DNA of 64,000 bases, from assembly GCA_944327085.1 (NCBI GenBank), contig CALVGG010000002.1, positions 1 through 64,000 of the forward strand, read 5' to 3'. The notes under the pieces are model-generated. The model was not told where the DNA came from, did not search any database, and worked only from the letters and a program-made list of their open reading frames with translations. This document shows, one piece after another, positions 588 to 10,867 of this stretch (positions within the stretch are counted from its first letter, which is position 1; each line of letters opens with the position of its first letter). The translations under genes and the position numbers were made by a program. This stretch comes from an uncultured Elusimicrobiales bacterium (GTDB lineage: Bacteria; Elusimicrobiota; Elusimicrobia; Elusimicrobiales; Elusimicrobiaceae).

Positions 588-596
588 AAATGGTCG
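588..596. repeat. attL, left copy of the 9-bp core
   Basis: AAATGGTCG, identical to 10774-10782. Left of it lies the old tRNA terminator; right of it lies the stranded recombinase tail. Confidence 0.7.
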
Positions 597-749
597 CAGT
601 TAGTTGTCTCCAAGCGAACTGAAATACGCCAAGACATCATAGAGCATCTGGATACATGGAAAGCCATTTTAGATGACCTTGACCGACTGTATGATCTCTA
701 TCCAAACCCATACTACCCTAAGATTGCTGATATGATTATCAAGCACTAG
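597..749 (+). pseudogene. Stranded C-terminal tail of the serine recombinase
   Basis: Fifty codons without a start run from the att core to TAG at 747-749, beginning QLVVSKRTEIRQDII and ending YYPKIADMIIKH. Read through the core (AAA TGG TCG = KWS) the frame equals the one in which the recombinase enters the core at 10774-10782. Joining the two ends gives a recombinase of about 564 residues once the A9 frameshift is corrected. The peptide is acidic and helix-forming (DTWKAILDDLDRLYDLY), plausible for a recombinase C-terminus. In the integrated state it has no start codon of its own. Frame agreement has a one-in-three chance of being accidental, so homology of this tail to other recombinases is the missing proof. 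Confidence 0.65.
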
Positions 750-1203
750 ACTGCCAATTTTTGCCACTTAGAGTTCAAACGTGGCATGATAGTGCCTGAT
801 AAACGTTTAATACATTTCCCGCAAATATAAGGTCAAATTTTAGGGATTTTCTAGATATGCAGGGGAAAATAGAGGGAAAATCGTTTTTATTTTGCTTTTC
901 TACTGTTCTCAGCCGATTTCTACATGTTACTCTATACAACTAACATTATAGACTGCCCCTTTGTTAATGCTTGGAGAATTGTGTTTTTACACCAGCCAAC
1001 ACTTGTTTTGGTACGGCAAGGCTATGGAACAGTTTTTCACTATGAATCAGTTTGTTTCATCACTTTATATCTATAATAGCCAAGACCAGACCTTTGCCAA
1101 ACTACTTGGCACATGTCTTTCTGCTATGATTTATGATGGTTCTATACTTACTAGGAAATGTAGAATGCTGCTATTAGCTACTTAATCGGTTAATTTAATT
1201 CAC
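750..1203. other. AT-rich non-coding stretch inside the element
   Basis: No convincing gene is visible. A 74-codon open frame at 961-1185 has no ribosome site and no recognisable features. The only structure seen is a small inverted repeat, TGCCAC at 762-767 and GTGGCA at 781-786. Confidence 0.4.
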
Positions 1204-1233
1204 TTGAGAATAGAAGCCTTAAATTATTAAAAT
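1204..1233 (+). promoter_or_regulatory. Possible promoter of the restriction-modification operon
   Basis: TTGAGA (1204-1209), an 18-base spacer and TAAAAT (1228-1233) lie 53 bases before the nuclease start codon. Confidence 0.4.
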
Positions 1234-1286
1234 ATGAACATACATGAGGAAAAACATCTATTGGATAATAGAGGGATAAACGAATT

Positions 1287-3512
1287 ATGGGAACATATGA
1301 ACAATTTATTACTTCATTATTGCCTGGTAACTATGCCCTCACCAAATCGATGGAGTTGACTAAACGGCAGGATTCAGGGACTTTATGGTATACAAAAAAG
1401 TTCTTGACCTTGTATTATTATATATTTTTATCTAACGATATAATGACTAAACAATATCAGCTAGATATTATTAGAATTTTTGATTCCTTTATTAATAGTT
1501 TAGATAAAAAAGTTCAAACTGATGCGATTAATTTCTTTTATCCACAAGATCCATCTATCAATCTAAAGTCAGAACATTTTAACTTTTTTTCAAATTTTGC
1601 TAGTTTCAATAGTTTTGAAAATCAAAAAGAACGCCTTGAATATTATCAGAGAGCAAAGAAATACTATTTCTCTTTATTAATGGGATCTGGTGGACAAACA
1701 GGTGTAAAACATAGGCTGAAAGAGTCTGTTCGGCAACCTGGGTTTATATATTCGACACAAAACATTGATCATGCTATTCTTAATGCGGCTGTTGAAAGCT
1801 GTATATATGACGTCAATAATGATCGACAGATACATGATAATTCAATTAAATATATTTTGTCTGCAGAAACAATGGCACGAGCTTGTAAAATTGCCCAAAA
1901 AAGAAAAGTACTACCCTCTGATATCCTTGAGCTAAACTCAAAATATCCACATCATAAACCGGGTTATCGTAGTATCGAAAATGACATGGTAGCGTTTATT
2001 AGAAATGAACGTCAGATTCTTTACTACTATGGTTTCTTCCATTCTAAATCGTCTGGGGCTACTGATTTTGAATTTAGTAGTTTAACTCCAATTGGAGAAT
2101 TAGCTTTAACTGCTAATTTTTATGAGTTTCTATCAATTTGGGAACATCAAAAGATAAAAATGATTTCCCAACCAGCAACAGCTGATATTAATAACATTAC
2201 ATTAACTTCACATGATCCTCGTCTTTTTGGTGTAAGCTTTACGCCATACACAGATATATTAGGCTACCTTATACGAAACGGCCGCCTAACATTGGAAGAA
2301 TATAAGTTTATCGTTTCCAGAAAGAAAAACACAATATCTGAAGAAGATTGGATACAGAATGAAGAAAGCATTTGCGCTCATATTGATGCCATTAAAGATA
2401 TAGTCCAGGGGTTTGCACGCAAAAGGGATATAGAAGATGAAGATGGAAGAAAAGAATTGTTGAAATATATTCTTGGTCTAAGAGATGATTTGCCTGTGGA
2501 CAAAGGGACCAATCCATTACAATCAGTTTCTTTTAGCGATTCCAGTCTGACTATAAGTAATGCTGCTACATTAGAGCATCTCTATGCCATGTATATCAAG
2601 ATGGAGAAATATAAACAACTAAAGTATCATGAGGTATTAAAAAGCGCAGAACAGGACTTAAGAAAAAGATATGTAGCCGGGTGCCATTCTCAAAATATTC
2701 CTATTAATGAGATGATAAAGATTCATTGGGATCTTTATAATATTCATGCGGATAAATTTATTTTACTTGGTGTCATGCTTGCTATGTCTTCCATAAAACT
2801 AAGAGTTTCTCTTGGTGATAATTTACAAAAGGATCAAAAAGAAAGACTTGTGTCGTACTTGTTTGGAACATTCAATGAACTATTAAAGCATATAGGGTTA
2901 CATAGCCTTTCATCTGTTAAAACAGCAATCCAACGAGTTATAGCTGCTATTAATTCTGAAGATTATTCCTTTTATTTGATCTCTGATGATAAACGATCTA
3001 AACAAGTGCTAGCAGAATATCAAGCCGTTGGAGCGTCCGATTTGTACACTAAAATTCAACAAATATCCAATACAGCTTTGGATAGATTTGCTGAAGATCG
3101 AAAAAGAAATACGCAGCTAATCGGAATGATGAAATCATATTATATGCTTGTTTACTCAAAAAACAATATGTTGCCCTGTGAGTGTTGTGGCCAGGAGACA
3201 TTTATGACTGATGCAAAAGAGCCTTATATTGAATTTCATCATTTGATTCCATTTAATATTGCGTATGGACCTGATCATTATTTAAATTTATTTGCTTTAT
3301 GTCCGAATTGTCATAGGAAAATGCACTTCTTAAATATGGAAGAAAGGAAAGGTCAATATAAGGCCTTAGAACGGAATAATTACGCTCACCTAAAGCTTAC
3401 TCAAAGGTTACAAGAATTACGTGAACATAATTTACTTAGATCTTATCACCTTGAGTATTTATTTGCAGAGAATGCTATTACTGAAGATGAATATAATATG
3501 ATTGCGGGATGA
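1287..3512 (+). CDS. HNH-family restriction endonuclease (putative)
   Basis: This 741-residue protein probably cuts unmethylated DNA. The only recognisable domain is a C-terminal HNH zinc-finger nuclease at about residues 631-680: C631 and C634, the FHHLIPF core near 650-656, then NLFALCPNCHRKMH with the second CxxC pair and a histidine. About 600 residues precede it without a motif I can name and may hold target recognition. The downstream partner starts inside its stop (ATGA overlap at 3509), and two DNA methyltransferases follow. HNH enzymes such as MnlI pair with two methyltransferases when the recognition site is asymmetric, so a type IIS-like system is a reasonable inference. The start has only a weak GAGGGA ten bases upstream. 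Confidence 0.75.
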   Translation: MGTYEQFITSLLPGNYALTKSMELTKRQDSGTLWYTKKFLTLYYYIFLSNDIMTKQYQLDIIRIFDSFINSLDKKVQTDAINFFYPQDPSINLKSEHFNFFSNFASFNSFENQKERLEYYQRAKKYYFSLLMGSGGQTGVKHRLKESVRQPGFIYSTQNIDHAILNAAVESCIYDVNNDRQIHDNSIKYILSAETMARACKIAQKRKVLPSDILELNSKYPHHKPGYRSIENDMVAFIRNERQILYYYGFFHSKSSGATDFEFSSLTPIGELALTANFYEFLSIWEHQKIKMISQPATADINNITLTSHDPRLFGVSFTPYTDILGYLIRNGRLTLEEYKFIVSRKKNTISEEDWIQNEESICAHIDAIKDIVQGFARKRDIEDEDGRKELLKYILGLRDDLPVDKGTNPLQSVSFSDSSLTISNAATLEHLYAMYIKMEKYKQLKYHEVLKSAEQDLRKRYVAGCHSQNIPINEMIKIHWDLYNIHADKFILLGVMLAMSSIKLRVSLGDNLQKDQKERLVSYLFGTFNELLKHIGLHSLSSVKTAIQRVIAAINSEDYSFYLISDDKRSKQVLAEYQAVGASDLYTKIQQISNTALDRFAEDRKRNTQLIGMMKSYYMLVYSKNNMLPCECCGQETFMTDAKEPYIEFHHLIPFNIAYGPDHYLNLFALCPNCHRKMHFLNMEERKGQYKALERNNYAHLKLTQRLQELREHNLLRSYHLEYLFAENAITEDEYNMIAG

Positions 3513-4342
3513 TAGCAACTATGATCGATATTACAAAAGTGATAAATAAAATATTGAATAAAGATTCTGGCAAAATACTAAAACAATTTCCTGCAGAATG
3601 TATTGATCTTGTTGTCACAAGTCCTCCTTATGATGATTTAAGAGATTATGAAGGTAAAATTTCTTGGGATTTCAGTACATTTAAGGATATAGCTTGTGAA
3701 TTATATCGCATAGTAAAAAAAGGCGGTGTGGTCGTGTGGGTCGTTGGAGACAAAACAAGTAAGGGCGGCAAGTCTCTGACTAGCTTTAAACAGGCCCTGT
3801 TTTTCCAAGAGCTTGGTTTTACAATGTATGATGTAATTATCTATGAAAAAGCAGGATCTGGACCTCCACATCCTAATAGATATTTTAATACGTTTGAGTA
3901 TATGTTTGTTTTGAGTAAGGGCAAGCCAAAAACGATCCATATCCTCCATGATAAGCCCAATAAGTGGGCCGGTCATTCTACATATGGAGAAATTACCCGA
4001 CGAGAGAAGGACGGTAGGTTGACAGTGAAAGGGAAAAAACTCATTAATAGATTTGGGGCAAGAACTAATATTTGGAGATATGCAAATGGGAAAGGTTTTG
4101 CCACCAAAGATTCGATAGCATATCAACATCCGGCTATTTTCCCTGAGAAGCTTGTGGCAGACCATATTTCGTCTTGGAGTGACCCTGGCGATCTACTGTT
4201 AGATCCTTTTGGTGGCAGTGGAACAACTGCAAAAGTGGCTCAAGAAATGAAACGAAAATGGATACTGATAGAAGCTGTTCCTACTTATTGCGAAATTGCT
4301 AAGGAACGATTGGAAAGAGGAAAAACGTGCAAACGGTCATAA
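3509..4342 (+). CDS. DNA methyltransferase, beta class, SPPY type
   Basis: A 277-residue S-adenosylmethionine-dependent DNA methyltransferase that would protect one strand of the site cut by the upstream nuclease. Catalytic motif IV is TSPPY at residues 37-41. The SAM-binding motif DPFGGSGTT lies near the C-terminus (about 228-238), so the order IV before I marks the beta class. A serine before PPY is typical of N4-cytosine enzymes, although some N6-adenine enzymes share it, so the modified base is not certain. The gene overlaps the nuclease by four bases (ATGA) and the next methyltransferase by 16 bases, which implies tight translational coupling. Confidence 0.88.
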   Translation: MIATMIDITKVINKILNKDSGKILKQFPAECIDLVVTSPPYDDLRDYEGKISWDFSTFKDIACELYRIVKKGGVVVWVVGDKTSKGGKSLTSFKQALFFQELGFTMYDVIIYEKAGSGPPHPNRYFNTFEYMFVLSKGKPKTIHILHDKPNKWAGHSTYGEITRREKDGRLTVKGKKLINRFGARTNIWRYANGKGFATKDSIAYQHPAIFPEKLVADHISSWSDPGDLLLDPFGGSGTTAKVAQEMKRKWILIEAVPTYCEIAKERLERGKTCKRS

Positions 4343-5661
4343 CGAATTTAACTGTAAAAAATACTTGCAAAAAATTATGGGAACTTTATCCTTTTCTTAG
4401 TCAAGATGGGACATTTTTTGCAATCATTTCAACAGAATACGATACTCACGGAAACGTAACAGCAGATTTCCTTGATGTGATATCTTATGCCTCTAAACTT
4501 GGATATGAATACGTAAATACTATTGTTTATCCAACAGTTTACAAACAACATGTTGCTTTTCTCGATAACGTTCGTTACATTGTCTGGATGTGCAAATCAC
4601 TTTCTAAAATGAAATTTAATAAAGATTCTATCCGTGAGAAACATATATGGAAGGATGTGGAGTGGGGCAAAAGAGCTAAAAATTATAATCCAAAAGGGAA
4701 GGACCCCGGAAATGTTTGGATTCCTACTGAGGATGATGGAAAAGCACATATTACCAAACATGTTCTATTGAGCGATAATGATGTTATTGCAAGATTAAAA
4801 AACATGGTCGGGTGTGGACGCAGTTGTGCTGTATATACTGAAAATCGAAATTTAATTGATTTAGATCAATCCTTTGCTCCCTTACCTGAGTGCAACCAAT
4901 CTTTACAAAAACGACCAGAAGTTATTTTTAAAACTTCTGAAAAGATGGATACTATCAAGGCAAAAACCCTAAATCTGATTGTTACTTCTCCACCATATTG
5001 GAATTTAAAAGATTACTATAAAAAAGGTCAGATTGGCCAAGAATCCTATGGAACATACCTCCAAAGGATGACTGTTGTGTGGAATCAATGTTATCATAAG
5101 CTTGCTGATAATGGCAGTATTTGGATTAATATTAATATACGTCGACAAGAAGGAAAAATTATTCCATTACCTAATGATTTTGTAAAGATATGTAAAAAGA
5201 TAGGCTTTTTTTATAAAGGTATTTTTATCTGGCACAAATCTTCTGGGATCCCTACGGGTGATAAGAATATTGTTGATAGACATGAATATGTACTTCTTTT
5301 TTCTAAAAGCAGAGATTTTTCGGTTGATTTCACTGAATTATCACACATTGCTGACTATAAAAACCCATTTATAAATGGTGGGGCTTTTTGGAATATTAAT
5401 AGAAAAGCAGGTAGTGTGGGGAAGAAATTTATTCATCCTGCTATTTATCCTAATGAGTTAGCTAAAAGAATTATACGTATTTCAACCCATGTAGGGGATT
5501 TAGTTTGTGATCCATTTTTAGGAAGTGGAACTTCTTTGATTGCTGCCATATGTTGTCATCGTAATTTTATCGGATATGAATACAACGAAGGATTTAAACA
5601 GCTTATCCAATATCGAGTTTCACTTGAAATCCCGGATACAGCGGTTATATATAAAAACTAA
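4327..5661 (+). CDS. DNA methyltransferase with an extra degenerate N-terminal half
   Basis: A 444-residue protein starting at GTG inside the end of the previous gene. The C-terminal half is a complete beta-class methyltransferase: TSPPYW near residue 220 and DPFLGSGTS near 392. The first 180 residues look like the middle and end of a second methyltransferase fold: a DGTFFAIIS strand, the LGYEYVNTIVYP stretch and VRYIVWMCK match in order the corresponding parts of the upstream enzyme. This half lacks both SPPY and the glycine-rich SAM loop. The N-terminal part may serve in DNA recognition or be a relic of a fused enzyme. With its neighbour it would methylate both strands of an asymmetric site. 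Confidence 0.82.
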   Translation: MQTVITNLTVKNTCKKLWELYPFLSQDGTFFAIISTEYDTHGNVTADFLDVISYASKLGYEYVNTIVYPTVYKQHVAFLDNVRYIVWMCKSLSKMKFNKDSIREKHIWKDVEWGKRAKNYNPKGKDPGNVWIPTEDDGKAHITKHVLLSDNDVIARLKNMVGCGRSCAVYTENRNLIDLDQSFAPLPECNQSLQKRPEVIFKTSEKMDTIKAKTLNLIVTSPPYWNLKDYYKKGQIGQESYGTYLQRMTVVWNQCYHKLADNGSIWININIRRQEGKIIPLPNDFVKICKKIGFFYKGIFIWHKSSGIPTGDKNIVDRHEYVLLFSKSRDFSVDFTELSHIADYKNPFINGGAFWNINRKAGSVGKKFIHPAIYPNELAKRIIRISTHVGDLVCDPFLGSGTSLIAAICCHRNFIGYEYNEGFKQLIQYRVSLEIPDTAVIYKN

Positions 5662-6066
5662 AACTGCATTTACCTAATACAATCTATCAATTCTTTCTCT
5701 TGAGCTTCTTTTTGCTACAATATACTCCCCAAGGAGTCCAGAATGTCTGTCAACAAGACATATGTATGCATGGGTTTCAAGTCTTTTTTTCCTCGGTAGC
5801 AGCAAACCGCGGTCTGAAACCCTTTACGGCTAATTTGGTGGTTTGGCAGCCCCGGTAGGAGGTTGTGGGGCTTAGTAACTAATATAGATGAAGTAAACCG
5901 AATTTTGACCATAGTAAAAACAAAGATCTATTTTTGATAATATTTTAGATGTCGAACAGACTTTAAAATGAATTTTAATGGCTCAAATTGCCTTTGGACG
6001 GGGTTTTTGAAGCCGCTGGGTCCTCCTTATCTTAATGTAAATGCATATATATGAGATTCTTTATTA
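5662..6066 (+). other. Structured non-coding region of the element
   Basis: No gene of convincing length. A possible 18-codon leader peptide starts at ATG 5743 behind AAGGAG (MSVNKTYVCMGFKSFFPR). Two perfect stems follow: GGGTTTCA 5772-5779 with TGAAACCC 5815-5822, and AGCCCC 5848-5853 with GGGGCT 5867-5872. Beyond 5890 the sequence is AT-rich. Candidates are a structured RNA, an attenuator, or the replication origin used by the Rep protein at 7742; sequence alone does not decide. Confidence 0.4.
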
Positions 6067-6095
6067 TTGACGAGAAACAGAAAATCAGATATGCT
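6067..6095 (+). promoter_or_regulatory. Sigma70-like promoter
   Basis: TTGACG (6067-6072), 17-base spacer, TATGCT (6090-6095). It faces the HTH gene at 6270, with the palindrome 6164-6186 in the leader. Confidence 0.45.
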
Positions 6096-6163
6096 AGATT
6101 GAATTTCATAAAAGTTCAGTGTCTTTAATACACTTTCGACTTCTTACTAAAATGTTGCCGCCC

Positions 6164-6186
6164 ATACATATACTACGTATATGTAT
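6164..6186. promoter_or_regulatory. Perfect 9-bp inverted repeat, candidate operator
   Basis: ATACATATA (6164-6172) and TATATGTAT (6178-6186) flank CTACG. It lies between two promoter-like sequences and about 85 bases before the HTH gene, the usual place for an autoregulator or excisionase site. No U-tract follows, so it is not a terminator. Confidence 0.45.
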
Positions 6187-6230
6187 CCTCGGAGACAAAG
6201 ACCTATGAAATTTACGCCAAAACAGGTACT

Positions 6231-6258
6231 TTGGTGCTCGGTTGCTGATAAATATAGT
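6231..6258 (+). promoter_or_regulatory. Second promoter abutting the HTH gene
   Basis: TTGGTG (6231-6236), 16-base spacer, TATAGT (6253-6258). The HTH start codon at 6270 is only 11 bases beyond and has no Shine-Dalgarno sequence, so a nearly leaderless mRNA is likely. Confidence 0.4.
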
Positions 6259-6269
6259 ACACTAAACGT

Positions 6270-6491
6270 ATGAAAAGAAAAGTAAGCAGTAAAACTAAAG
6301 ACACACCAGTAGACACCAATAGTTCTTTTTTGTTGGTAGAGGAAATAGTCAAGCAACTTCGTGTACAGCCACTGACTATTTATCGTTATATTAAAAACAA
6401 AAAATTGATCGCTTATAAACTTGGGAAAGAATACCGTGTCAAAAAAGAAGATTTCGAAAACTTCCTTTCTAAGTGCAAAACAGACAAGTAA
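6270..6491 (+). CDS. Excisionase-like helix-turn-helix DNA-binding protein
   Basis: A 73-residue protein of the excisionase/MerR-like HTH_17 type. After about 20 polar residues comes LLVEEIVKQLRVQPLTIYRYIKNK, then KLIAYKLGKEYRVKKEDFENFL: a helix-turn-helix followed by the beta wing with the invariant-looking YRV-K-DFE pattern. Such small proteins control recombination direction or transcription in mobile elements. It has no ribosome site and sits just behind a promoter. The next gene overlaps its last 71 bases in another frame. The palindrome at 6164-6186 is a candidate binding site; that link is inference. Confidence 0.7.
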   Translation: MKRKVSSKTKDTPVDTNSSFLLVEEIVKQLRVQPLTIYRYIKNKKLIAYKLGKEYRVKKEDFENFLSKCKTDK

Positions 6492-7404
6492 TTCTGTTTC
6501 ACCCTCAACCGCTGTTCCCCTAACTAAGGCATACCCCGATTGGGTGTCTGTGTTGGTGTGGTTGTGTATTAACAGTAAAGAGGGAATAGCGTTATTATGT
6601 AAAGAACTTCCAGCTAAACATAGTATACCTTCAATTCTTACGGTTTGCAGTATGGGACATCCTTGTGTATGGAATGGCGATGTCGATCCCATTGAGGCCC
6701 AGTATCCTATACATCTGGGATGCTGTGTGAAGGACGGGAAAATAGCAGCAGCTAAAAAGTGGTTGGCTGATTATATAACAGCGTACGAGGAGGATAACTT
6801 GCAGGACCCACAGCATTATAAATGGGAAGCAAGTGTTAAAAGAACATTGAAGCAAGTGCAAGAATTATATGACGAATATGGCAAATGTATTTCTTTACAG
6901 CAAATGCCTATTCCAAAGGTACGATTTTATACAATATTGATGAAATGTGCCTTGCTGGGAGATGTTCAACTTTCTGTTCCAGAGGGAAAAGCCATTTATA
7001 TTAACCAAGTGATAGAAAATTTACAGCTGACTTTAATTAAGGACTTACCCGAAATAGAAAAGAACTTGATACCACCTTCAGCTGATTATGAATACATGGG
7101 CTTACGCTTATATGCCCAAGAGGGAATTATTCGATACGGAAGCAGACAAGTTCAAAGGTTTCGGGTTACTAATAACAATGCGTTTACATTATTAGTCCGG
7201 ATGATGAATAAAAGGAGAGGCTCTCCTTCTTTGGCAGAATTGCGGAAGTTATTTCAGGTCGATACTTGGCTAAATGATGATGCTTTCCGGCATCGAGTAG
7301 AATCCTACATCAACACAGTAAATAAACGTATGGAAGAAGTCGGTTTCCCAAAGGAACTGCATATTATGGCTAAAACCGTTGAGTGGCAAAAACGCCTAAA
7401 ATAA
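6421..7404 (+). CDS. Unknown element protein, up to 327 residues
   Basis: I do not recognise this protein. The open frame begins at TTG 6421, overlapping the HTH gene; GTG at 6436 is an equally possible start, and translation may depend on coupling. The basic, serine-rich first 30 residues may not be translated. Several Cys residues (CSMGHPCVW, LGCCVKDG) occur around 75-105. The C-terminal third is basic and helical, with a segment SPSLAELRKLF then YINTVNKRMEEVG that would suit a winged helix. It is followed at once by a strong terminator, so it ends an operon starting with the HTH gene. Position next to Rep suggests a role in replication or control. Confidence 0.55.
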   Translation: MGKNTVSKKKISKTSFLSAKQTSNSVSPSTAVPLTKAYPDWVSVLVWLCINSKEGIALLCKELPAKHSIPSILTVCSMGHPCVWNGDVDPIEAQYPIHLGCCVKDGKIAAAKKWLADYITAYEEDNLQDPQHYKWEASVKRTLKQVQELYDEYGKCISLQQMPIPKVRFYTILMKCALLGDVQLSVPEGKAIYINQVIENLQLTLIKDLPEIEKNLIPPSADYEYMGLRLYAQEGIIRYGSRQVQRFRVTNNNAFTLLVRMMNKRRGSPSLAELRKLFQVDTWLNDDAFRHRVESYINTVNKRMEEVGFPKELHIMAKTVEWQKRLK

Positions 7405-7428
7405 ACAAAACAGTAACTGTTTTCTTCT

Positions 7429-7458
7429 GAGCTTTCAATTCCTGAAAGCTCTTTTTTT
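7429..7458 (+). terminator. Rho-independent terminator
   Basis: GAGCTTTC (7429-7436) pairs perfectly with GAAAGCTC (7444-7451), followed by seven T. It separates the HTH operon from the Rep operon. Confidence 0.85.
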
Positions 7459-7494
7459 ATGTTTACTTAGGCTAAGTCTGGGATAAAGTATGGG

Positions 7495-7749
7495 ATGTTT
7501 CGACGATCCATAAGCAATAAGACTGGGATTGCTGACAGGCATTCTGTGAGCATGACAAAAGAAATTAACTATGCTCCAGATGAACAAAACAAGCCTTCAT
7601 ACCGAGAAGTGCTTGAAGAAGTTTTCGGCCAGACCTTTACTGAACAAGAAGCTCAGGATGCTCTGTTTACACAAACCGAATTTATCCGACTGTTGGCTCA
7701 GATTGAACAAGAACAGATAGACCAAGAACAAGGGGAAAAGTATGATTGA
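7495..7749 (+). CDS. Small acidic protein upstream of Rep
   Basis: Up to 84 residues, unknown. The N-terminus is basic; from the internal ATG at 7552 the protein is very acidic, with VLEEVFGQTFTEQEAQDAL and IEQEQIDQEQGEK, probably helical. Neither start has a strong ribosome site. Its last eight bases overlap the Rep start codon, so it is likely a translational leader or accessory factor of replication. Confidence 0.5.
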   Translation: MFRRSISNKTGIADRHSVSMTKEINYAPDEQNKPSYREVLEEVFGQTFTEQEAQDALFTQTEFIRLLAQIEQEQIDQEQGEKYD

Positions 7750-9046
7750 CCGCTTAATTCTGCGTTTTTGGCATCCGCATGTTTATCAGATAACCAATCC
7801 ACAAGCATTTGCTAATCCGTTGTATGGCTATGGTATTAACTGGAATGTGTCTTATACAAAAGATGTGGCTGCTGGGTATTATCCTACTGTAGTGTTAAAT
7901 AAATACAAACAGGATTATCCGCCTTATTTAACACAAAAAGTGCTTAAAGTCAGTTGCTCCTTACCCAAAATAGTATATGGCAATAATCTGTTTGAGCTGG
8001 AAGATTTGGACTTAACAACGGTTTGCAGTGTCCTTTCCGATAAACTCAACCAAATGGGTGTGTCCTTGTCACCTAACTATATAAGTACTGTGACGGATAT
8101 TGCCAGTATAGAGTATGGAAAAAACTTTTACACAGGTCATATCCCAGTGAACTTCATATTACAGGAACTATACAGGGCTCATCCCTTAAATAGCTATATG
8201 GATGTCAGCCGTATTAAGTTTTGTAATGGCGGTGAGGAATTGGTGTTCTATTCCCCGGGGTATGAGGTGGTGTTTTATGATAAGGCAAAAGAGTTAAAAA
8301 AAGAACTGGCATATAGGAAATGTGTATTGCCCGATAAATTGGCGGATGAAATCAGACAGGACAAGTTCAATGTTTTCCGTATGGAGGTTCGTTTCCATAA
8401 TTCTACGGTGAGGACGGCTGCTTTTAAAGAGATAGGAATCAGTGAAGAATACAATGCTTCTCTTCAACAACTTTTTAGTAGAACAGTTTCAAGAAAAGTA
8501 TTGAACTATTACTGGCAACGAATCAGCAGAACTGCTCGGTTAGTGCCTTTATCTTGTTTTACCCCAGCTTATGAGCTTCAAGGTATGTATCATGGAGCAG
8601 GAAAGCGACTCAAACCTCAGCAGTTATTAGCCCGGTTAGGTATGCACTGCTTGCTTAGGGAATGTGGATATAAAGCAACTAGAGAGACTTTACAACGTAT
8701 AGGAAGCAGTAATCCTGCCGGGTTCATTAAGCAAAACGTAGGGCCAACATGGAAACTAACAAACAAACTTGATATATGGAGATTCTTTGACCGTGCTTTG
8801 TCCAGATTTAAGTGTATGAAAGAGAAATGTTGGAAACGTGCTAACAGAAGACTGTCTGCTCCCTATTTTAAACACACAGAGCCAATGCTATCAATTTCAG
8901 TAGTGGCAAAAATTTTAAATGTAGAGAACAAAGTTGTGAGATCTGAAATCAAAAGAGGTGTATTGAGAGCTAAGAAAATTGGAATAAGGAGGTGTCGAGT
9001 AAGTCGCCAAGCATTAGCTGAATATTTGCAAGACAGCGAGCCATAA
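7742..9046 (+). CDS. Replication initiation protein, phage gene II/X type, with C-terminal HTH
   Basis: A 434-residue protein resembling phage/plasmid replication proteins of the gene II/X group (rolling-circle type). Supporting features are the MIDRLILRF start, the ISTVTDIASIEYGKNFYT segment, FYDKAKELKK followed by FRMEVRFHN, and RKVLNYYWQRI, the usual order in this family. Residues from about 385 form a separate domain, ISVVAKILNVENKVVRSEIKRG then RVSRQALAEYL, an excisionase-type HTH that would give DNA specificity. Its start overlaps the small upstream gene by eight bases. It implies that the excised element can replicate as a plasmid or phage-like circle. The family call rests on remembered motif order, not an alignment. 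Confidence 0.68.
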   Translation: MIDRLILRFWHPHVYQITNPQAFANPLYGYGINWNVSYTKDVAAGYYPTVVLNKYKQDYPPYLTQKVLKVSCSLPKIVYGNNLFELEDLDLTTVCSVLSDKLNQMGVSLSPNYISTVTDIASIEYGKNFYTGHIPVNFILQELYRAHPLNSYMDVSRIKFCNGGEELVFYSPGYEVVFYDKAKELKKELAYRKCVLPDKLADEIRQDKFNVFRMEVRFHNSTVRTAAFKEIGISEEYNASLQQLFSRTVSRKVLNYYWQRISRTARLVPLSCFTPAYELQGMYHGAGKRLKPQQLLARLGMHCLLRECGYKATRETLQRIGSSNPAGFIKQNVGPTWKLTNKLDIWRFFDRALSRFKCMKEKCWKRANRRLSAPYFKHTEPMLSISVVAKILNVENKVVRSEIKRGVLRAKKIGIRRCRVSRQALAEYLQDSEP

Positions 9047-9082
9047 AGTACTACTTATTAAAAGCAAAATAAAAGATAATTA

Positions 9083-9111
9083 TTGATAAGAAAAGATAAA
9101 TAAAATAAAAT
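9083..9111 (+). promoter_or_regulatory. Candidate recombinase promoter
   Basis: TTGATA (9083-9088), 17-base spacer, TAAAAT (9106-9111). A perfect 7-bp inverted repeat, AACACTT 9142-9148 and AAGTGTT 9155-9161, lies downstream and could be an operator or a recombinase arm site. Confidence 0.4.
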
Positions 9112-10731
9112 TAAAAGAATCAACCTATGAAAGACAAATTCAACACTTATATCAAAGTGTTCGTTATAAGAAAAATATAAATTTATGTGCAGAAACTTTA
9201 AATACTATATATTAGTTTCCGCAAGGAGGAAAGAAGCCAATGCCAGGTCCTTTATTACGTGCCATTATTCCTAATCAAGTATCAAGAGCACAGCATGCTG
9301 TTATTCTAGCCAGGGTATCTTCTGCAGAACAAAGGGAAGGCAAGTCTTTGCCAGCCCAGTTGGCGAGTTGTAGGAATTACTGTATACGTAAACAATTGAT
9401 AGTTGATAAAGAATTTTCGTTTACAGAATCTTCTACTCGAGGAGACAGGAAAAAATTTCAAGAAATGATGAGTTTTGTAGTGCAACGGCCATATTCTGTA
9501 GCGATTGTTGCTGATACGTTAGACCGTTTCCAACGTAGTTTCAAGGAGTGCTTAGATTGGCAAGGTCAGATTGAAAGTGGAAAGATAGAACTGCATTTCT
9601 TGGCTTCAGGGCAGGTCATTACTCAAAATTCACGTTGCGCAGAAATCATGGGTTATAAATCAGGCGTTATGAATGCTGAAATCTATATCTTGCAGATGAA
9701 AGAAAACATACTTCGTGGTCTTGCCCAGAAGGTAAAAGACCAAGAGTATCCAGGTAAGGCTCCGGTTGGGTATAAGAATGTAATAATCAAAAAAAAATAC
9801 TATTGTAAAAGATGAAAAAACTGCCCCTTTCGTACAGAAATTATTTGAAAGATACGCTACAGGTAATTACACTATAGAACAAGCAGCCAAGGATTTTGTG
9901 TCTGCTGGTGTTATGAGTTGTCATAAAACCCCGTTTTCTCGTTCAAGTGTTGGGCGTGTATTGGATAATCCGTTTTACTACGGACAAATGCGAATAGGTG
10001 GTACGCTATTCCCGCACTGTTATGAACCCTTAATCAGCAAAGAATTGTTTGACAGGTGCAAACGTGTAAGAGCTCATTATCGGACCCAGCCTTTTGAATA
10101 TGCGGCTAAACCCTTTGTTTTTAGGGGCATTCTTCGTTGTAAACACTGCGGAGCCGTTATTACCAGTTATACCAAAGTGAAAAAGATTAAAGGGACTGGA
10201 GAGGTACACAAGTACACCTACTTAAGATGCAGTGATAAAGCTAACCGACGTACAGACTGCACATGTCCACAAGTGAATGAAACGATGGTTGAGAAACAAG
10301 CTTTGCAGTTTTTAAGACTTTTATCTATTGATCCGCGTTTGCTTCAGTTTACTTTAGATCAGATGCAACAGTTGGATGAAGCCGAAATCAAAGCCCAAAA
10401 AACTCAGATTGCCAATCTGCGTGAGCGTTTAGGTCAAATTGACAAAGTACGTTATACTTTTATTGAAAGAGAAAGCAGAGGTGATGTTGATTCTGAGTGG
10501 GTAAGTGGAAAGTTAAAGGATTTAAAAAAAGAAGAGGAACGTATCCAAGTTCAGTTACAGCAGACAACAGACCATGTACCAGAAGTAGAATGGACTATGG
10601 AACGTTTACTCCGAATTATGTCAAATGCTGCTAAGCTCTTCGAGAGTTCGCACACTCTGCAGAAGAATGCTTTACTTCGGTGCTTTTGTGCGAACTCCAC
10701 TTTTGATGGGAAAAATCTTGAAATTATAATG

Positions 10732-10762
10732 AAAAAACCCTTCCAAAAATGTTTGGAAGGGT
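10732..10762 (-). terminator. Element-supplied terminator for tRNA-Pro(CGG)
   Basis: An 11-bp perfect stem (10737-10747 with 10752-10762) with a 4-base loop is followed on the minus strand by six T. It lies inside the recombinase coding sequence, 14 bases past the tRNA CCA end. It replaces the host terminator now at 555-586. Confidence 0.75.
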
Positions 10763-10773
10763 CTTCATGTATC

Positions 10774-10782
10774 AAATGGTCG
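10774..10782. repeat. attR, right copy of the 9-bp core
   Basis: AAATGGTCG; its last six bases are the CGACCA end of tRNA-Pro(CGG) on the minus strand, so integration leaves the tRNA intact. Confidence 0.7.
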
Positions 10783-10852
10783 GGGCGGCGGGATTCGAAC
10801 CCACGACCTCACGGTCCCGAACCGTGCGCGCTACCATCTGCGCTACGCCCCG
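10777..10852 (-). tRNA. tRNA-Pro (anticodon CGG)
   Basis: A 76-base cloverleaf: acceptor CGGGGCG/CGCCCCG, anticodon stem CACGG/CCGTG around TTCGGGA, T arm GTGGGTTCGAATCCCGC. Discriminator A and CCA are encoded. It is the integration target of the element. Confidence 0.95.
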
Positions 10853-10867
10853 TATAATAATTTTAAA

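Follow-up and report, generated by a model that had tools for sequence, protein, structure and literature searches.

The window, the whole stretch of 64,000 nucleotides that we analysed, comes from an Elusimicrobium-type gut bacterium and carries a mobile element of 10,186 bp that spans positions 588 to 10773 and lies at the 3' end of a tRNA-Pro(cgg) gene. In all probability it is an integrative element in which the gene for a large serine recombinase (LSR) holds the attP site 50 codons before its stop codon, and the version of the enzyme that is encoded reports whether integration has taken place; an effect of losing the tail on the enzyme is what we infer from this arrangement.

Borders of the element and the two ends of the recombinase

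The element is bounded by two copies of a 9-bp core, AAATGGTCG, to which no strand is assigned. One copy forms attL (588-596) and the other attR (10774-10782), where its TGG is the antisense of the CCA end of the tRNA. The integration target, tRNA-Pro(cgg), is still intact (10777-10852, minus strand; ARAGORN and Rfam). A chromosomal rho-independent terminator, which follows tRNA-Pro in the empty site, is located at 557-587 on the minus strand (hairpin of -12.3 kcal/mol, z -4.3). An earlier note on this DNA had proposed to look for empty tRNA-Pro sites in relatives, and an uninterrupted terminator and tRNA-Pro (empty attB), intact and contiguous, is present in 13 species of the same genus (G005, G029, G024, G028, G002, G012, G021, G007, G001, G008, G033, G010 and G016). 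Because the terminator and the tRNA adjoin each other without an insert in these species, the element in the window is an insertion.

The integrated form of the recombinase gene occupies 9240-10857 on the plus strand, with a frame break in a run of nine A (9789-9797), and its product is 54% identical to the recombinase of a related genome, G034. An open reading frame from 9240 to 9815 and the post-A9 frame up to 10857 together hold the N-terminal Resolvase domain, the Recombinase domain and the zinc ribbon (Zn_ribbon_recom), all above the Pfam cut-offs, and profile matches to the A118 and TP901-1 structures support the assignment as an LSR. At attR, the recombinase reads up to CIKWS and then continues for 25 codons antisense to the tRNA, with a stop at 10857. 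At attL, the identical core in the identical frame is followed by 50 further codons and a TAG at 747-749. Joining the ends across the core adds these 50 codons in frame and gives a predicted LSR of 564 residues when the A9 break is allowed for, a qualification that matters because the window copy, as assembled, does not read as one uninterrupted frame. The coordinates and counts that the earlier note had given, with the 564-residue join among them, proved to be correct. Its two central claims also stand: the in-frame continuation across the core, the empty sites and the homologous detached tails described below place attP inside the coding sequence, and both att frames, read directly, have the last 50 residues replaced by tRNA-encoded ones. 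The predicted integration-dependent exchange of the C-terminus of the LSR is thus well supported. The evidence here that the recombinase acts on attP and attB consists of the integrated product and the empty sites.

The A9 run breaks the recombinase frame in the window copy, and the copies of relatives are unbroken. Phase variation, slippage or an error in the consensus might explain the break, which may leave the recombinase of the window itself inactive.

The detached tail and its relatives

The detached C-terminal tail of the recombinase (597-749, plus strand; 50 codons and a stop) has homologues in G034, G011 and G045, also detached. The G034 element occupies the same tRNA-Pro in an identical layout, with the tail at attL. 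In G011, the element is located at tRNA-Glu and uses a different core, ACGTC, across which the ends join in frame (DIKKR followed by QSVFSKRT). G041 and G038, whose recombinases are just 39-42% identical, have a homologous tail with the motif LDDLDRxY at the left ends of their elements, and these also join in frame (YCVWG followed by QKDSEL). Elements with homologous tails occupy tRNA-Pro, tRNA-Glu and tRNA-His-region sites, and all joins are in frame.

The tail is genuine coding sequence. The four close tails have pN values of 0.20-0.43 against pS values of 0.64-0.94; their differences are mainly synonymous, as under purifying selection. In the window, the first 48 of the tail's 53 codons do not include an in-frame ATG, GTG or TTG, and the open frame that leads into attL from the chromosome on the left does not contain a start codon either. 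Since the tail has no usable start when integrated, selection must act via the joined gene of the circular form. We are confident that attP lies within coding sequence and that the tail beyond it is selected. AlphaFold predicts a long helix for tail residues 2-37 (mean pLDDT 84, about 95 at the helix centre); the model of the recombinase has a low-confidence C-terminus and is too poor there to use.

Could the tail instead be an independent small gene, for example for a directionality factor, that lies beside attL and joins in frame by coincidence? Small regulators are often found near att sites, but every delimited element joins in frame, no start is conserved among relatives, and the late position of the first possible start in the window led us to reject the tail as a separate gene; we consider this explanation very improbable. 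Even less credible is an artefact, in the form of a spurious repeat or a meaningless open reading frame through a tRNA. The core is just 9 bp long and open reading frames antisense to tRNAs are a known annotation nuisance, but the contiguous empty sites, the same structure at the same site in G034 and at another site in G011, and the frame census described below all argue against chance.

The earlier note had also named findings that would speak against a split gene. A match of the tail to an unrelated protein was not found in Pfam or PHROG, where the tail family does not have any match, and the homologues do not stop before KWS. As to tails kept without an element, none of the empty-site genomes retains one, but G045 has an orphan tail. 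This tail (locus L047, contig C23, 3331-3462) has an intact frame and no adjacent recombinase in the stretch that was read, and may be a remnant or the product of a broken assembly.

The C-terminal ends of the tails are IIKH, NDHK, SSCL, SGID and ICNK. None is ssrA-like by eye, and we rejected an ssrA-like degron in the tail.

In some relatives (G051, G087 and the f2 family), no T1 tail turned up, in part since the stretches examined were too short. In G051, attL could not be placed from the empty sites, and a repeat in G087 was not used, being the degraded end of a recombinase. Neither the recombinase nor the tail returned relatives in scans of IMG/VR. Plasmid and phage collections gave distant recombinases only; in two records named 'Bacteriophage sp.' the recombinases likewise run into tRNA genes.

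A second LSR family, about 28% identical, is present at tRNA-His with the core TATGGGGT. Single elements of this family have attL tails in the frame of the core, namely WGTVVHAFYNFLITR in G021, WGTVVNAFYNFLITR in G054 and WGTLLHKMYNYLAFEVYSVPFYKNLV in G031, each ending at a stop codon. These tails are conserved as WGTxxxxxYN[FY] and differ from the tail of the first family. As this short tail lies partly within the expected attP arm, its conservation may be partly at the DNA level.

In G041, G038 and G048 (loci L034-L039), we observed arrays of tandem elements that belong to the two recombinase families and have the core TATGGGGT in common. G041 and G038 have one family next to the other, with the upstream recombinase joined in frame to the tail of the next element, and in G048 a remnant of the second family is fused to another tail. 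These fusions indicate that tails have been exchanged between elements. In G041, at about 8850 of locus L034 as oriented, the tail is fused in frame to the 3' end of a putative cinA gene, recognised as such by eye, so that attL there makes a chimeric protein.

Possible consequences of the exchange

That serine integrases do not undo their own integration is usually ascribed to a separate directionality factor. We hypothesize that the exchange of the C-terminus could contribute here. In the circular form, the enzyme would have 564 residues and end in the helical tail. Crossover within the AAATGGTCG core at tRNA-Pro would carry the tail to the element's opposite end and provide the enzyme with a short end encoded antisense to the tRNA, and the version of the enzyme would thereby signal whether the element is integrated. 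The tail-bearing enzyme may be adapted to the free state, in which attP and attB recombine, and loss of the tail upon insertion may lower or alter activity and so stabilise the integrated state. Excision would then await an accessory factor or another complete copy. A candidate for the former is a small HTH_17 protein, excisionase-like, encoded at 6270-6491 on the plus strand (Pfam HTH_17, 5e-10; PHROG 'excisionase and transcriptional regulator', 5.7e-7), whose sequence suggests a directionality or regulatory gene. The directionality of LSRs is governed by their C-terminal domains and coiled coil (PMC3783163), and a change at the C-terminus could therefore matter. We give even chances to a change in activity or direction upon loss of the tail.

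An overlap without regulatory effect, in which attP lies in the gene for compactness only, the tail is mildly useful in the circle and enzymes with or without it behave the same, has a substantial chance of being correct, if somewhat short of even, and as an account of function it is nearly as likely as a switch. It would fit the position of the cut, which falls beyond the recognisable LSR domains (in the joined protein, the Pfam domains reach no further than residue 358), as well as the replacement ends, whose length is unconstrained between a few and about 30 residues, and the open recombinase frames that the integrated copies of relatives retain. It is less easily reconciled with a tail that is strongly conserved at the protein level despite its detachment, or with a layout that recurs in a second recombinase family whose tail is different.

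Outright inactivation of the recombinase by integration, with remobilisation only by a complete copy in trans, is unlikely. Such a mechanism has a precedent in the archaeal SSV-type integrases (PMC8371274), and the tandem arrays, where a recombinase is refitted by the tail of another element, would be compatible with it. However, the loss in the window amounts to about 50 residues that lie beyond all recognised LSR domains and leaves the catalytic serine domain whole, whereas the SSV-type gene is split between domains.

In working principle, the SSV-type integrases come nearest to the window element. Classic SSV-type cases integrate into tRNA genes. In these archaeal, 'suicidal' tyrosine integrases (SSV1, pTN3, pT26-2), the recombination site lies within the integrase gene, which is partitioned by integration (PMC8371274). 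The window element is similar in that its recombination site is inside the integrase gene and integration alters that gene, but its enzyme is a bacterial serine recombinase that loses a C-terminal tail only, keeps its catalytic domain and gains a tRNA-encoded end. With serine rather than tyrosine recombinase domains, it works like the SSV type but is not a member. The earlier note had compared the element with the mycobacteriophages BPs and Brujita, in which immunity depends on integration, attP lies in the repressor gene and integration strips the product of an ssrA-like degradation tag (PMC4557955, PMC9934374). The comparison is apt as an analogy, as attP lies within a gene of the element and integration alters the 3' end of the product in both cases, but here the gene is that of the recombinase and the tail ends are not ssrA-like; the SSV-type integrase is the closer precedent (PMC8371274).

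With A118/LI, phiC31 and Bxb1, the window enzyme shares Resolvase, recombinase and zinc-ribbon domains and a predicted coiled coil, but it differs from them in having attP inside the gene, followed by an extra tail. To our knowledge, standard large serine integrase systems have attP outside the coding region. Our search of the open-access literature did not turn up a serine integrase whose gene contains attP; subscription journals were largely outside this search, and an earlier description is possible. An enzyme that is rewritten by its own reaction would, if confirmed, be a direct alternative or addition to a directionality factor. Gene prediction on an integrated copy yields a protein with a false C-terminus. 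Such recombinases are therefore mis-annotated in genomes, and when LSRs are mined as tools for genome engineering, the wrong protein would be cloned from integrated copies.

Gene ends in other phyla, the antisense terminator and cargo

Among the tRNA-ending LSR loci collected in this analysis, 32 run into a tRNA with an encoded CCA, and for 31 of them the recombinase frame takes the antisense TGG as a Trp codon (binomial p 4e-14 against one third, which is not a true probability as the loci are related). The linker lengths vary, and the loci come from Elusimicrobiota, Alphaproteobacteria, Rickettsiales, Patescibacteria and Dependentiae. For the loci from other phyla, attL was not found within 10 kb. 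At two loci, L138 and L126, mobile-element or restriction genes lie on both sides of the recombinase, which runs past the core into a native tail with DKFRT in common. Judged by their gene content, both look like unintegrated forms. With the layout recurring in relatives and matching gene ends in other phyla, the predicted arrangement holds beyond the window.

In the window recombinase, the codons for KKPFQKCLEG (10732-10761, plus strand) double, on their antisense strand, as a rho-independent terminator that directly follows tRNA-Pro downstream (-20.1 kcal/mol, z -5.6). KKPFxxxxEG codons at the same place in G034, G011, G041, G048, G051 and G087 likewise provide an antisense terminator immediately downstream of the tRNA that is targeted. 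Across the seven recombinases the stem covaries: both partners have changed in 5 of the 10 pairs, and the covariation score is 0.44 against 0.15 after shuffling (0/500). We speculate, tentatively and with some doubt, that there is a widespread class of tRNA-targeting LSRs in which attP lies in the gene, the CCA end serves as a conserved Trp codon, exchange of a C-terminal helix sets activity or direction, and the tRNA is handed an antisense terminator.

A KKPF-type terminator also adjoins tRNA-Leu(caa) at seven loci from several species of the same genus (L094, L095, L097, L101, L103, L105 and L107), where the flanks further upstream look mutually unrelated, as if the terminators were the scar of departed elements.

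The cargo of the window element (1287-5661, plus strand) comprises an HNH-domain protein of 741 aa and two N6/N4 DNA methyltransferases of 277 and 444 aa (Pfam HNH and N6_N4_Mtase; PADLOC mREase_IV, oMTase and MTase_II). The backbone (6421-9046, plus strand) encodes proteins of 327, 84 and 434 aa, recognised as open reading frames, the last with a C-terminal HTH_17 match. The backbone open reading frames of the G034 element are alike in length, in order and visibly in sequence. Its cargo (L032, 13976-17495) consists of an AriA/PtuA-like ATPase and a PDC-S41 candidate defence protein. As the cargo is variable and the backbone apparently common to the window and G034, these may represent a family of defence-carrying elements.
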